DNA of 64,000 nucleotides from Aquirufa antheringensis (GTDB lineage: Bacteria > Bacteroidota > Bacteroidia > Cytophagales > Spirosomataceae), in the NCBI RefSeq assembly GCF_004307425.1, contig NZ_SEWZ01000001.1:187662-251661 (forward strand), written 5' to 3'. The notes below the pieces were generated by a model. The model did no database searches and was not told the origin of the DNA. It saw only the letters and a program-made list of their open reading frames with translations. Made by a program: the position numbers and the translations under genes. This document shows, piece after piece, positions 39,098 through 54,788 of the stretch. Within the stretch, counting starts at the first letter, position 1, and the number at the start of each line of letters is the position of its first letter.

Positions 39098-40954
39098 TTG
39101 TTAAGTCAGCGGCGAAATTTCATCTTCTTGTTCTTCGGTATTGTGGGGCTCCTGTTCATTGGTAAATTATTTTACCTACAGGTGATCGATGATACCTATG
39201 AAAAAGCCGCAGATAATAACGCAATTCGCAAGATTATTCAGATTCCTTTTAGGGGAGAAGTCTATGACCGCTACGGAAAATTAATTGTCTACAACACGCC
39301 AGTATACGATTTGTATATGATTCCACGCAAAGCGGTGGTGAAGGATACGAATCATTTTTGCCGGGTTTTCGGTGTCACGAAAGAATATTTTATCAAAACC
39401 ACGCAGCGCGCTCGTGCCTATTCGCGCGTGAAACCGAGTCTGTTTTTAAAGCATTTGTCCAAGGAAGATTTTGCTAGCGTGCAAGATGCGATGGTCGATT
39501 TTCCAGGCTTCTTTTTTGAAACCAATGCCTTCCGCACCTATCAGTCGCGTTCCTTTTCGAATGCCTTAGGCTACGTAGCAGAAATTAGTCCCAATGCCCT
39601 AGTGGATCAAAGGGACGATTATTACCGTCAAGGTGACTATGTGGGAATTTCTGGTATTGAGTCATTCTACGAAGAAACTTTGCGCGGGCAACGCGGGGTG
39701 AAATACCGCATGGTGAATAGCAATGGGGTGGAGAAAGGCGATTATAAAAATGGCTCATTGAATATTAATCCGGTTTCGGGAAATAACTTGTACACCTCCA
39801 TCGATCTGGCGATTCAAGAGTATGCGGATAGTTTGATGCAGCATAAGGTGGGTAGTTTAGTGGCGATTGAGCCTTCGACGGGGGAAATTTTGGCGATGGT
39901 TTCTGCCCCATCTTACGATGCGAGTCAATTAACGGGGAATAATTTTTCCAAATACTACCAGGAGCTTGCTTTAGATCCCATGAAGCCCTTGCTGAACCGT
40001 CCGCCATCGGCCTATTATCGTCCGGGATCTACCTTTAAATTAGTGCAAGCCCTCGTGGGACAGCAATTAGGCTTTATAGGGCCAGGAACGGTGTTTTCCC
40101 ATGCAGGGGCTCCAGTAAAATGCCATGGTCATGGACCGGTGGATTTGCGCGGAGCGATTCGGGTTTCGTGTAACCCCTATTTCTACCACGCCTTCCGTAA
40201 AATGATTTACGATAATACGACAGGTGATACCTACGAACGCTCCGCTAAAGGTTTGCAGCGTTGGTCAGATTTAGTCGCTAACTTCGGCTTTGGACGTAAA
40301 CTAGGGGTCGATTTAGGGAATGAGAAGAAGGGGATTTTGCCCAATGTGGAATATTATAATTCCGTCTATAAAGGCGAAAAGATGTGGAAGTTCTCGAATA
40401 TTTACTCGATTAGTATTGGAGAGGGCGAAATCGTGGTGAGTCCTTTGAAAATGGCCAATTTAGCGGCGATTATTGCGAACAGAGGCTGGTACATACCGCC
40501 GCACGTGGTGAAAGGTGTGGGACTTCAGAAATCAATTGATCCTTTCTACAAGACGCCGGTGAAGGTAGGGGTGGAATCAAAATATTTCAATGTCGTCATC
40601 GACGGAATGGAAGATGCGGTAACGCATGGAACGGTAGAGGCAGATGGTCGCATTCCGGATATCAAGATGGTGGGTAAGACGGGTACGTCCCAAAACCAAA
40701 AAGGCAAAGATCACTCCATCTTCATCGCCTTCGCCCCTCGTGATAACCCGAAGATTGCCATTGCGGTGTTTGTGGAGAACGCCGGTTTTGGTGGATCTGC
40801 GGCGGCACCGATTGCTTCTTTAGTGGTGGAAAAATACTTGAAACGGAAAGTCGACCGCAAGGCGGTGGAAACCAAGTTTATGAATATGAATTACCTGCCT
40901 AATGTGTATAGCGTAGTGCGTAAAAAGGCAGCTCCAGATTCCACGAAAAAATGA
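39098..40954 (+). CDS. mrdA: Penicillin-binding protein 2 (elongasome transpeptidase)
   Basis: Class B PBP cross-linking lateral-wall peptidoglycan in rod growth. One membrane helix (about residues 8-25) precedes the PBP dimerisation domain (FRGEVYDRYGKLIVYNTPVYDLYMIP). The transpeptidase motifs are STFK (YYRPGSTFKLVQAL), SCN (IRVSCNPYFYHAF) and KTG (VGKTGTSQNQKGKDHS). 618 residues is normal. The only start fitting the family is TTG at 39098; there is no ATG near. It overlaps rodA by 4 bp (ATGA). mreBCD, often found directly upstream in related genomes, is absent here. Confidence 0.94.
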   Translation: MLSQRRNFIFLFFGIVGLLFIGKLFYLQVIDDTYEKAADNNAIRKIIQIPFRGEVYDRYGKLIVYNTPVYDLYMIPRKAVVKDTNHFCRVFGVTKEYFIKTTQRARAYSRVKPSLFLKHLSKEDFASVQDAMVDFPGFFFETNAFRTYQSRSFSNALGYVAEISPNALVDQRDDYYRQGDYVGISGIESFYEETLRGQRGVKYRMVNSNGVEKGDYKNGSLNINPVSGNNLYTSIDLAIQEYADSLMQHKVGSLVAIEPSTGEILAMVSAPSYDASQLTGNNFSKYYQELALDPMKPLLNRPPSAYYRPGSTFKLVQALVGQQLGFIGPGTVFSHAGAPVKCHGHGPVDLRGAIRVSCNPYFYHAFRKMIYDNTTGDTYERSAKGLQRWSDLVANFGFGRKLGVDLGNEKKGILPNVEYYNSVYKGEKMWKFSNIYSISIGEGEIVVSPLKMANLAAIIANRGWYIPPHVVKGVGLQKSIDPFYKTPVKVGVESKYFNVVIDGMEDAVTHGTVEADGRIPDIKMVGKTGTSQNQKGKDHSIFIAFAPRDNPKIAIAVFVENAGFGGSAAAPIASLVVEKYLKRKVDRKAVETKFMNMNYLPNVYSVVRKKAAPDSTKK

Positions 40955-44496: not shown

Positions 44497-44868
44497 TTAC
44501 TTCTTAAAGATGGACCACATCATGAGTCCATATCCCATGAGGAAACACAATCCGCCAATTGGCGCCACGGCTCCGAAAATTCCCTGATTAGTCAAGCAGA
44601 TCAAATACAAAGAACCCGGAAAGATAATGCAGCCGGCAAAATGAAAATAGGCCGCTGTCTTCAGGTGTTTATTGCTAAAGTTCATTTGCCAAACTCCCAA
44701 GATCAACAACGTAATTCCTCCATACATTTGGTAGCGTGCTGCTGTCTCAAATGTTTCTAGGCGATTAATCTCGCGTAAATAGTCCTTCCACGCGTGTGCC
44801 CCAAAAGCGCCTATGGCAACAGAAAGTCCAGCAATAAGTGAGCCGAAAAAGAGCGAGAATTTTTTCAT
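44497..44868 (-). CDS. DUF423 membrane protein
   Basis: A four-helix inner-membrane protein of 123 residues. The family signature SLIAGLSVAIGAFGAHAWKDYL is at the N-terminus, followed by FETAARYQMYGGITLL, FHFAGCIIFPGSLYLICLT and APIGGLCFLMGYGLMMWS. DUF423 (YgdD in E. coli) has no settled function. It is read in the same direction as the atp genes but is separated from atpH by a terminator. Its stop directly abuts the stop of the convergent kinase-like gene. Confidence 0.9.
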   Translation of the reverse strand: MKKFSLFFGSLIAGLSVAIGAFGAHAWKDYLREINRLETFETAARYQMYGGITLLILGVWQMNFSNKHLKTAAYFHFAGCIIFPGSLYLICLTNQGIFGAVAPIGGLCFLMGYGLMMWSIFKK

Positions 44869-51920: not shown

Positions 51921-52748
51921 ATGGAAACCCCTATTAAAGAAAAAGAGCAGTTTAGAAATTACGATCAAGGTGATATCACCGCTGCCGTAAAAGAACATTA
52001 CCGCAAAATGCGCTCTCGCCAAACCTACGACTACGTTCAGCGCATGAAGGCCAAATACCTGACATTCGAACGTCCCATGGATCTTTGGGAAATGATGGAG
52101 CGCCTAAACGTCCTCGTCGATGTTTCCGATCCTGATTTAAATCTACCTAACATCATTCACCTATTGCAATCTGCAGAAGGTATGCGCGCGGACAATCGCC
52201 CCGACTGGATGCAGTTAGTCGGTTTAATTCATGACCTCGGAAAGGCCATGTACTTATTCGGTTCAGACGAAGACGGCACTTCACAAGCCGAACAATGGGG
52301 ATTAGTAGGAGATGTATTTGTCATAGGATGTAAATTGCCAGACTCTTGTGTCTATCCAGAGTTCAATGCCTTGAATCCGGACATGCAAGACCCTCGCTAC
52401 AATACCGAATTAGGAGTTTACGAAGCAGGATGTGGTCTAGATAACGTTCATCTAGCCTGGGGACACGATGAATATTTATTCCAAATACTACGTAATCACC
52501 AAGAGAATACTATCCCAGAAGCAGGAATGGCCATGATTCGGTATCATTCATTCTACCCATGGCACTCAGGCGGTAGCTACAAAGCTTTGCTGAACGATAA
52601 AGACTCGCAATACCTCGAGTGGATCCGCGATTTCAATCAATATGATTTGTATACCAAATCTCCTGTGATTCCTGTGTATGAGGAATTGAAGGAGTATTAT
52701 AAGCCGATTGCGGAGAAATATCTCGGTAAAGGGCCTATTTATTGGTAG
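51921..52748 (+). CDS. miox: Inositol oxygenase (MIOX)
   Basis: Di-iron enzyme cleaving myo-inositol with O2 to D-glucuronate. All six iron ligands known from the mouse enzyme have counterparts: His in NIIHLLQSAEGMR, His-Asp in LIHDLGK, His in AWGHDEYLF, His in IRYHSFYPWHS and Asp in NQYDLYTKSPV. The 275-residue length and the C-terminal YLGKGPIYW match animal enzymes (about 285). The TAG stop is the first codon of a long hairpin. No uronate or inositol genes are adjacent. Confidence 0.96.
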   Translation: METPIKEKEQFRNYDQGDITAAVKEHYRKMRSRQTYDYVQRMKAKYLTFERPMDLWEMMERLNVLVDVSDPDLNLPNIIHLLQSAEGMRADNRPDWMQLVGLIHDLGKAMYLFGSDEDGTSQAEQWGLVGDVFVIGCKLPDSCVYPEFNALNPDMQDPRYNTELGVYEAGCGLDNVHLAWGHDEYLFQILRNHQENTIPEAGMAMIRYHSFYPWHSGGSYKALLNDKDSQYLEWIRDFNQYDLYTKSPVIPVYEELKEYYKPIAEKYLGKGPIYW

Positions 52749-52811
52749 TTCTTTAGAGGCTCCTTAAAAACGGCGCAAGCACATGTTTTTTGCGGAGCCT
52801 CTAAAGAACTA
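52746..52811 (+). repeat. Long-armed hairpin unit 1 with conserved core
   Basis: A perfect 18-bp stem (52746-52763 with 52794-52811). A bulged extension adds four pairs (TTGG 52742-52745 with CCAA 52813-52816), so pairing reaches into the last codon of MIOX. The left arm starts exactly at the MIOX stop codon. The 30-nt apex is 3 nt + a 23-nt core (52767-52789: AAAAC, GGCGCAAGCACAT, GTTTT) + 4 nt. There is no T-run after the stem. Confidence 0.9.
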
Positions 52812-52839
52812 TCCAAAATAAAAAGGGCTCTTGGCCTCA

Positions 52840-52903
52840 TAAAACTAAAATACCCCTTGAAAATGGCGCGAGCACATATTTTCTACGGGGTATTTTAGTT
52901 TTA
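52840..52903 (+). repeat. Long-armed hairpin unit 2 with conserved core
   Basis: A perfect 17-bp stem (52840-52856 with 52887-52903), unrelated in sequence to the stem of unit 1. The apex has the same 3 + 23 + 4 nt layout. The core (52860-52882) reads AAAAT, GGCGCGAGCACAT, ATTTT: three changes from unit 1, two of which are a compensating pair. It lies in the gap, not attached to a gene end. Confidence 0.9.
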
Positions 52904-52959
52904 ATCTCTTTCTGAAATAAGTTTTAGATTGGGGTCAAAAATCGCCACCTATTTCCAGA

Positions 52960-53027
52960 GATAAATTTCTTCTCCCTGCTACAAAACATGTGCTTGCGCC
53001 GTTTTAAGCAGGGAGAAGAAATTTATC
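52960..53027 (-). repeat. Long-armed hairpin unit 3, inverted orientation
   Basis: A perfect 21-bp stem (52960-52980 with 53007-53027), again unrelated to the other stems. Read on the minus strand, its core (53005-52983) is identical to that of unit 1. Its arm begins at the second base of the TGA stop of the minus-strand NTF2-like gene, so relative to that transcript it sits exactly as unit 1 does after MIOX. Confidence 0.9.
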
Positions 53028-53550
53028 ACCATCCATCATCCGCCTTCGGCTTCGCCACCGCTTTCTTAACCGGTGCAGCTGCTTTTGTAGGAGTGGACTT
53101 CGTTGCACCTGTTTTGGCACCCTGACCCGTCGCCAGATTAACATCTAAAGGCACCCGACTATATACGCGACAAACGATTTTCCAATCGTCGTTCATTTTA
53201 ATTAAGCTTAGTAAATCGATGTACTTGAAATCATCAAACTTGAATTCCACTGTCGCTACCGCCGAAGTTCCAGCATAAGAGTAATTTAATAGAGCTCCAG
53301 TTGCTTTTGCGCCGCCTGCTGGCATACCTGCGATGAATTTACGCAAAGGGGTGTCTGTGATTTTTCCAGTCGTGGTATTGAGGTTTCTCAGTAGTGCATT
53401 GCTTGCGAAAGCACGGCCAAGGCTAGCTGTGTCGCCTTTTGTGAAACCTTCCGTGTAAGAAGTAATGGCAGATTTAATGCCCTCGTCTTCTGATTGAGCG
53501 AAAGCCGAGGTGGCTACTAGGCAAAACAGTGCAATAAATAGATTTTTCAT
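53026..53550 (-). CDS. Secreted NTF2/SnoaL-like (lumazine-binding type) protein
   Basis: A 174-residue exported protein. A signal peptide (MKNLFIALFCLVATSAFAQ) is followed by an NTF2-like alpha+beta barrel (about residues 22-135: AITSYTEGFTKGDTASLGRAF, ATVEFKFDDFKYIDLLSLIKMNDDWKIVCRVYSR). A disordered Lys/Ala/Pro/Thr-rich tail ends DDGW. It resembles the putative lumazine-binding group; function is not known. It follows the serine hydrolase gene after 11 bp, likely as one operon. Its stop lies in the arm of hairpin unit 3. Confidence 0.82.
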   Translation of the reverse strand: MKNLFIALFCLVATSAFAQSEDEGIKSAITSYTEGFTKGDTASLGRAFASNALLRNLNTTTGKITDTPLRKFIAGMPAGGAKATGALLNYSYAGTSAVATVEFKFDDFKYIDLLSLIKMNDDWKIVCRVYSRVPLDVNLATGQGAKTGATKSTPTKAAAPVKKAVAKPKADDGW

Positions 53551-53561
53551 GGTTTGTTTAA

Positions 53562-54788
53562 TTAATTGCCTCCTGAAGATTCGCTTTCTGCTGGGAGATT
53601 TTCTCCTTTCAGGAAGAATTTCGCTTTTTCAGGATACAAGATGGATTGAACGATATTGACTTTGGCTAACGAATGATTCGCCATATTACCTAAAATGATA
53701 ATAGCCGAATTGTCTTTTTGATTATGCAAATAATAATTTTTGAATCCGTGCCACCAGCCTGTGTGGTAAGTAAGCCATTCTCCATTCTCAAGTTGCTTCA
53801 ATCGCCAGCCTAAGCCGTAGTTCGTTGCAAGGACTTTAGGCTTCGTATGTTGTGGTGTAAATGCTTCCGCTAAGGAGCTAAGTTTGACTACCGTTTCTGA
53901 ATTCAAAGCCTGGTCCCAAAGAAACATATCCTCCACCGTAGAATAAATTCCTTTGTCCCCGGTAACACCATCTAAATGGTCGAAACCTACCACGGCAAGT
54001 CCGGAACGTTTGGGTTGATAGCCAGTAGCCGATTTTTTAAGTAATTCCGGGTGTTGCGGATCATATACAAAAGACTCGCTCATGCCCGCAGGCGTGAAAA
54101 TGTTTTCTTTTACGTATTCCCTGAAACCTTTACCGCTAATGCGCTCTACGATATAAGCCAATAAAATGTAATTGGTATTATTGTAATGAAACTGGCGATT
54201 CGGGTGGTAATCGATGCCCGGTTTGATTTTGTTGAACAGTTCGACCACTTTGGCATTTGTTAACGGGGCTTTCTTGTCATAGTATTTATCCAAACAATAG
54301 GCGTAATTAGGTAGGCCAGACTTGTGTGTCAATAAGCTGCGAATGGTGATGCTGGAATCGTAGGGAAAACCGGGGATGTGTTGTTCTACTCGATCATCGA
54401 GTTTTAATTTCCCTTGTTCCATCAATTGTAAGATGGAAACGGCGGTGAATTGCTTAGAAACGGAGGCTAATTGAAAGGGAGTTCGCGTACTTAATTGTGC
54501 TTTCGTGAAGTTATTCGCAATCCCAAAAGCGCGTTTGTAAATAATCTTACCATATTGTGCGACTAGCACGGTACCATTGAATCCTGTTTTCTTTTGTAAG
54601 GTTTTAAAGAAGGTATCGAGTTTAATCGCTTTTTGCTGCGCTATTTTAGGGTCAAATAAACTCGCAATACTATCGTTTCTCTTTTCGACCGCGCTGTTTT
54701 TGGCAAAAAAATGACCAGGAACATTATTGCAGGAGGCCATGCAGAATAAGGATGCCAAAATACTAAGAGCCAAAGACCTACGATTCAT
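53562..54788 (-). CDS. Serine hydrolase lipoprotein (beta-lactamase class C/PBP4* family)
   Basis: A lipoprotein of 408 residues (lipobox FCMASC) of the beta-lactamase-like serine hydrolases. The nucleophile motif SxxK is in [23 protein letters not shown], the YxN-type motif in [11 protein letters not shown], and the third motif in [14 protein letters not shown]. Many such proteins are DD-peptidases or esterases rather than true beta-lactamases, and resistance should not be inferred. It is divergent from yidD. Confidence 0.88.

Follow-up and report, generated by a model that had tools for sequence, protein, structure and literature searches.

A group of long gene-end hairpins was found in the freshwater bacteria Aquirufa antheringensis and its sister species in which the tip stays while the arms are often replaced between close relatives, with turnover at several sites. 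With moderate confidence, we believe that these hairpins are lineage-restricted palindromes of gene ends, with a variable arm, a conserved tip and an inverted copy of the arm, and that they were formed by fold-back copying at the tip. Three of them lie in the window, the stretch of 64,000 nucleotides of the A. antheringensis genome (G000) that was analysed.

The three hairpins sit in a 277-bp gap separating two convergent genes, a MIOX-family gene (PF05153; 51921..52748, + strand) and a Lumazine_bd_2-family gene (PF12893; 53026..53550, - strand). Unit 1 (52746..52811, + strand, 66 nt) has an 18-bp perfect stem with arms at 52746-52763 and 52794-52811 and its core at 52767-52789. Unit 2 (52840..52903, + strand, 64 nt) has a 17-bp perfect stem with arms at 52840-52856 and 52887-52903 and its core at 52860-52882. 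Unit 3 (52960..53027, 68 nt) has a 21-bp perfect stem with arms at 52960-52980 and 53007-53027, and its core (52983-53005) lies on the minus strand. The initial annotation had described three units of 64-68 nt with perfect stems of 17-21 bp in this gap, and its coordinates and lengths were correct. It had given the apex as 3 nt, a 23-nt core and 4 nt; units 1 and 2 agree with this, and the apex of unit 3 is shorter. As it had also claimed, the core is identical in units 1 and 3 and differs at three positions in unit 2, and the tip alone is conserved among the three units, whose perfect arms are unrelated to each other.

Of the three differences in the core of unit 2, two together amount to a compensatory replacement of C-G by T-A in the collar, and the third is inside the GNRA-like loop (GCAA/GCGA). 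The predicted fold of units 1 and 2 consists of a lower stem, a small internal loop, a collar (AAAAY/RTTTT), a 3' bulge and a mini-hairpin with a GNRA-like loop, and unit 3 is predicted to form a single nearly continuous stem with the same top. The folding z-scores of units 1, 2 and 3 were -8.7, -7.8 and -11.2, and none of 200 shuffles folded equally well. By a rough calculation, 1.4e-4 perfect hairpins with arms of at least 17 and loops of 3-30 are expected by chance per 64 kb at this composition. The three hairpins are real and far beyond chance. The window holds nine perfect hairpins with arms of at least 11 and loops of 3-45, and the six besides the units have arms of 11-14. The MIOX-family gene ends in TAG, and the left arm of unit 1 starts at the first base of this stop codon; the Lumazine_bd_2-family gene ends in TGA, and unit 3 starts at its second base, so that the stop codon opens the hairpin in both cases. 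The tips of these two units have the same sense as the adjoining genes. The initial annotation had mentioned neither the inversion of unit 3 nor that each outer unit opens at a stop codon.

Related hairpins were found at the same MIOX/lumazine locus in eight sister species. The array varies by species: some hairpins are intact, some have other arms, some are chimeras (in G037 and G011), and half-palindromes broken inside the core also occur. A 13-nt core was found in 12 of the 38 genomes of the genus, and in eight of these 12, G000 included, it lies between the same two genes. A single match without matching arms was found in each of G002, G003, G016 and G024. G017 is a ninth species with hairpins at this locus, but with other apices. 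The 23-nt core has three copies in G000, and this number did not change when up to 3 mismatches were allowed. The initial annotation would have given up the element if its core occurred nowhere else in the genome or its relatives, and half of this holds within this genome, because the core has only these copies at one locus. In relatives, the core was found with self-complementary flanks. It had proposed to test whether the flanks are always self-complementary; in some genomes the core matches have no arms. With up to 2 mismatches, the 23-nt core was found among 222 genomes of the family in eight genomes of the genus and in three of genus g29, where the sites have no arms. The armless matches (the 13-nt core in four genomes of the genus, the 23-nt core with 2 mismatches in three g29 genomes) look like chance. 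No copy of the core was found in viral contigs.

In G011 and G029 the gap holds an extra small gene (L029 and L031) between MIOX and the hairpins, which looks like a glyoxalase/VOC protein gene, and a hairpin or hairpin remnant starts at its own stop codon. Unit 2 may be the 3' hairpin remaining from a lost gene, because the region in G011 and G029 comes after the stop codon of this extra gene, which is absent from G000. A short remnant resembling the start of the extra gene, with a hairpin directly after it, was seen in G027. A probable relic, recognised by eye, lies at 52919..52942 (- strand) and would consist of half of a type E tip (ATTTTT, minus strand) and an old distal arm GACCCCAATC.... 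Fragments like it are present in G027, and type E tips are intact in G008, G011 and G017. In three further sister species, irregular tandem TAGACGTTGGACGT-like units replace the hairpins 3' of the MIOX stop codon (L041-L043).

The initial annotation had recognised no known family, and our searches agree with this. Rfam gave 12 matches at E up to 1 for positions 52000-53800, every one below the gathering score, and a known Rfam RNA was rejected for this region on that ground. None of the nine hairpin-bearing genomes has a match to the Y1/RAYT transposase domain PF01797, which at E ≤0.001 was found in 12 of the 38 genomes of the genus, all outside the nine. REP/RAYT elements (PMC3733652) resemble the present hairpins as short intergenic palindromes, some with structured loops. 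As described in that source, they are classified by stems of 6-13 bp with a GTAG or CGTC end, whereas here the stem sequence differs between sites and the hairpin genomes have no RAYT-type domain. A conserved stem in many copies, as in REP families, was not found: the arms of the three units are unrelated, and the exact core has three copies at one locus. As raw occurrences, CTAC or GTAG adjoins some tips and not others. REP/RAYT identity was rejected on the lack of the Y1 transposase domain. A literature search over a limited set returned no recognised description of tip-conserved, arm-variable palindromes in bacteria. In sponge mitochondria, the repetitive hairpin elements described in PMC2800124 are likewise intergenic, but their stems are conserved and their loops variable, which is the opposite of the present hairpins. 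The organelle palindromes of Volvox (PMC2670323) are similar in having a common loop motif and nested palindromes; they are sequence families with loops of 3-5 nt, and the account in that source, as far as it was consulted, notes no mirrored gene ends.

The tip also occurs at other gene ends. The covariance model R1, built from 16 units, matched 9 of the 38 genomes of the genus at E ≤0.001; these were the same nine species, with matches at further loci there too. Seven further genomes of the genus matched only at E 0.05 to 0.8. Twenty R1 stretches were fetched, and most have long gene-end palindromes with differing arms and diverged tips. L107 has an ordinary-looking hairpin. L110 has an imperfect hairpin, which one of two scans did not return, and L119 gave none. 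The diverged tips form about seven subfamilies in nine species, with the collar AAAAY...RTTTT. When each is read in the sense of its neighbouring gene, the tips align as AAAAYGGCGCRAGCACATRTTTT, AAAATGGCCTACGTCATATTTT, AAAATGTCGTTACACAAATATTTT, AAAACTGCCTTACGACAATGTTTT, AAAATGTTATTACATAAATATTTT and AAAATTGTGCTGCGCAATAATTTT, plus AAAATGCGCTTCGCGATATTTT, and the registers differ among the subfamilies. With a coarse filter for hairpins with an AAA...TTT apex, G000 yielded 8 in 450 kb and G011 yielded 7 in 398 kb, whereas in 200 kb each the sister species G022 yielded 1 and the sister species G006 none; the tip of the single G022 hairpin is not of these types.

The arms of the tip-hairpins were compared between G000 and G011, whose coding identity is about 90% (91 and 89%). 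The G000 sample contained 54 gene-end hairpins, and 46 of them could be placed in the G011 sample. The median arm identity of the 40 ordinary gene-end hairpins was 1.00/1.00. For the 6 tip-hairpins it was 0.60/0.64, and random 18-mers gave 0.57 ± 0.11. The G000 sample holds nine tip-hairpins, one of which (435058) was left out of the comparison. Two (40119 and 44376) keep the tip family and have different arms in G011. Unit 3 (240621) corresponds to a chimera in G011 in which the core and one arm are kept, and unit 2 (240501), which is outside the comparison of 46 hairpins, has both arms identical in the two genomes. At 39783, 240407, 341822 and 374320, G011 has no hairpin with the same tip, so these places show gain, loss or replacement and not a change of arms beneath a fixed tip. 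The ends of the M20 peptidase and RF-1 genes carry one tip family in G000 and G011, with different arms. The RF-1 protein is 98-100% identical in eight clade members, and its gene end has at least four arm types around a single tip family; some of the hairpins there are perfect, some chimeric and some accompanied by relics. The RF-1 hairpin of G027 is mismatched; G017 has a perfect hairpin with the left arm of G027, followed by a tip and the right arm type of G027. At 39783, the arms are common to G000, G017 and G037 with one change, so that arms are also heritable. The unchanged arms of unit 2, the kept arm of unit 3 and the common arms at 39783 show that turnover is not general. A search with 24 arm sequences in 18% of G000 and 16% of G011 returned the hairpins themselves and weak matches only. 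The source of new arm sequence stays outside the fold-back proposal.

At the end of its chain-6 NADH dehydrogenase gene (PF00499), G011 carries a hairpin whose right arm, when mirrored, reads GAG CGA AAC TTT TAA. The gene itself ends in GAG CGT AAT TTT TAA in G011 and, read by eye, in GAG CGA AAC TTC TAA in G000. The arm therefore seems to have been copied, inverted, from an earlier version of the coding end, because the mirror has the CGA AAC of G000 and not the CGT AAT of its own gene. At 39783, the last 10 coding nucleotides and the stop codon are mirrored in the right arm with one mismatch; G011 has no hairpin there, yet it carries nearly the mirrored coding end. At these two places the arm was found to be an inverted copy of a pre-existing flank, which is a feature of template-switch palindromes. 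The RF-1 relics of G000, G011 and G017 terminate in the mirror of the gene end, and so, clearly, does one of the three relics at the lumazine gene in G027. At C1:341822 of G000, the relic of a left arm is the exact mirror of the right arm, whereas the left arm now in place departs from it at two bases; the remains of an older hairpin appear to enclose the whole. Chimeras and half-palindromes broken inside the tip were found around intact copies. The claim that the arms are unrelated is true among the three units, but the arms are not simply independent, since those examined closely are inverted copies of the neighbouring gene end.

Template switching in replication can create reverse-complement copies that make a perfect stem in one event and can repair existing stems (Monttinen and Loytynoja 2022, PMC8794818). 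In that account, such hairpins are described from the histories of RNA genes, whereas the present case has a conserved tip recurring at numerous gene ends, accompanied by relics and chimeras. What was observed is that the tip is conserved, that arms turn over at several places, and that mirrored gene ends, relics and chimeras exist; the copying mechanism and, in most cases, its direction are what we infer from them. The tip, with its collar (AAAAY/RTTTT), mini-hairpin and short 3' bulge, would be the fold-back point. During DNA synthesis, a strand ending in the tip would pair with itself, be extended along the adjacent arm, sometimes past the stop codon and into the final codons, and then return to the template. 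One such event would give a new perfect palindrome and leave the old arm and part of the tip outside as a relic. Recombination or deletion between tips would swap arms and produce chimeras, and the next fold-back would restore perfection. The order of states at the hairpin sites is likewise a reconstruction, and more than one reading is possible. We consider it possible, and hold this tentatively, that the tip is a new genetic element in its own right: an armless tip of about 23 nt, selfish or functional, which would prime fold-back on its flank and so make a perfect palindrome of the local gene-end sequence. The initial annotation had also thought of a new small genetic element, or of a structured RNA. 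Its interpretation is supported in part: hairpins of the same type exist in sister species and, with diverged tips, at other gene ends, but the exact core does not recur across the genome.

The hairpins begin near stop codons, and the tips are co-oriented at ten gene ends. This would be expected of structured RNA 3' ends, in which the hairpin is selected in the mRNA for stability or processing, a protein binds the tip, the arms merely pair and their replacement is fast compensatory evolution. The C-G/T-A covariation in the collar and changes on both sides in 18 of 18 arm pairs of 16 related units agree with this reading, which we nevertheless regard as unlikely. Among 903 arm pairs of 47 distinct hairpins selected at stem scores of at least 10, a filter that raises the Watson-Crick share and treats G-T and A-C alike, 848 were Watson-Crick, 8 G-T, 23 A-C and 24 other. 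The deficit of G-T against A-C (p = 0.011, for related and hence non-independent sequences) counts against selection on the sense RNA, because such selection would favour G-U over A-C. Moreover, the arms differ as blocks while ordinary terminators remain identical, and the mirrored coding bases and half-palindrome relics are not predicted by RNA selection.

The orientation of 41 hairpins was listed, with genes taken as open frames of at least 70 codons and not as annotations: 29 were sense (one entered twice), none antisense and one both, and 11 had no stop codon in range. Because these data also served to fix the direction of each tip subfamily, the orientation is tested only where a subfamily has more than one gene end. 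Such subfamilies provide two informative gene ends for subfamily A, four for B and three for F, or about six independent agreements. The common tip direction is thus weaker than the raw count indicates, and it is suggestive and not overwhelming. A model of replication only does not predict it. The position at stop codons and the common direction hint at a putative selected role of the transcribed hairpin at the mRNA 3' end. In our reading, the arms are made and repaired at the DNA level, and the place and direction of the hairpins may have a reason at the RNA level.

An intrinsic transcription terminator of the ordinary kind, if its stem were unusually long, would also lie directly 3' of a stop codon, including between convergent genes, and the present hairpins are indeed located just downstream of stop codons. 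We hold this explanation to be very improbable. A T run of at least 5 at the stem end was found in 0 of 15 tip-hairpins versus 30 of 36 ordinary gene-end hairpins, and the classical terminator was rejected for the missing T run; ordinary gene-end hairpins also mostly keep their arms. The constant direction of the tips relative to the genes would equally suit an insertion of 3' UTR copies by reverse transcription, and a fold-back copy is expected of cDNA. The reverse transcriptase domain PF00078 was found in 3 of the 9 hairpin genomes and had no match in G000, which is 99.55% complete. Reverse transcription as a requirement was rejected because of this absence from G000 and most hairpin genomes, and we give the explanation hardly any credence.

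Several tip subfamilies at various gene ends, spread over nine species of this genus, together with the apparently nested hairpin at C1:341822, could point to a small non-autonomous mobile element of the REP or MITE type, which would be moved by a transposase and insert at gene ends or hairpin tips. A case in another genus may be added to these. R1 gave two more matches among the 222 family genomes, in G083 and G214, at one place each with E near 4e-4. The G083 stretch (L213) has no hairpin at score 13 with a loop of 9 or more. In G214, a long palindrome close to a gene end has the tip AAAATGGCGCAAGCTCTTTT, and 240 kb sampled from this genome contained three palindromes with a common 27-nt inner part (TATGCCATRTCT...AGAYATGGCATA) and unrelated outer arms. 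Judging from these sequences, the G214 palindromes are perhaps the same phenomenon with an unrelated tip in a second genus. We find a mobile element improbable, since the Y1 domain is absent from the nine hairpin genomes, the arms are unrelated rather than conserved, and the mirroring of host gene ends in right arms is not given by simple insertion. The genome of G214 is 7.5 Mb in size, and the sampled 240 kb (L214 to L225) hold 20 near-perfect palindromes with scores of 17-44, many of them near gene ends, for example at 10247-10365 of L219. A GTCTACGTC palindrome in G214 resembles the TAGACGTTGGACGT-like tandem units of the three sister species.

For fold-back copying, the persistence of its products is also of interest. 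Perfect palindromes are commonly expected to disappear or be cut, and SbcCD cuts palindromes. The SbcD profile (TIGR00619) matched 0 of the 38 genomes of the genus, while 13 of 14 controls matched, 8 of them over the cut-off. Sister species without these hairpins likewise have no SbcD match. The apparent lack of SbcD across the genus would permit long palindromes and may let them persist, and the missing match offers a genetic handle. RNA stems, by the usual view, evolve through single base-pair changes. The hairpins are a natural bacterial system in which whole stems differ between close species around a constant tip, so that the evolution of stems by template switching becomes directly testable. 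They also call for caution, because covariation nearly without G-U intermediates can reflect the copying of DNA rather than selection on RNA.

Other repeats were observed in the intergenic regions of the genus. A further intergenic repeat, GGTAAATGGTGAATGG, occurs in runs near hairpin sites at C1:39900-40080 and 44500-44600 of G000 and at C1:326070-326134 of G011. In two other sister species, G014 and G020 (L188, L190, L205 and L206), short intergenic hairpins of the AGACGCGATACCTCGCGTCT type are repeated.
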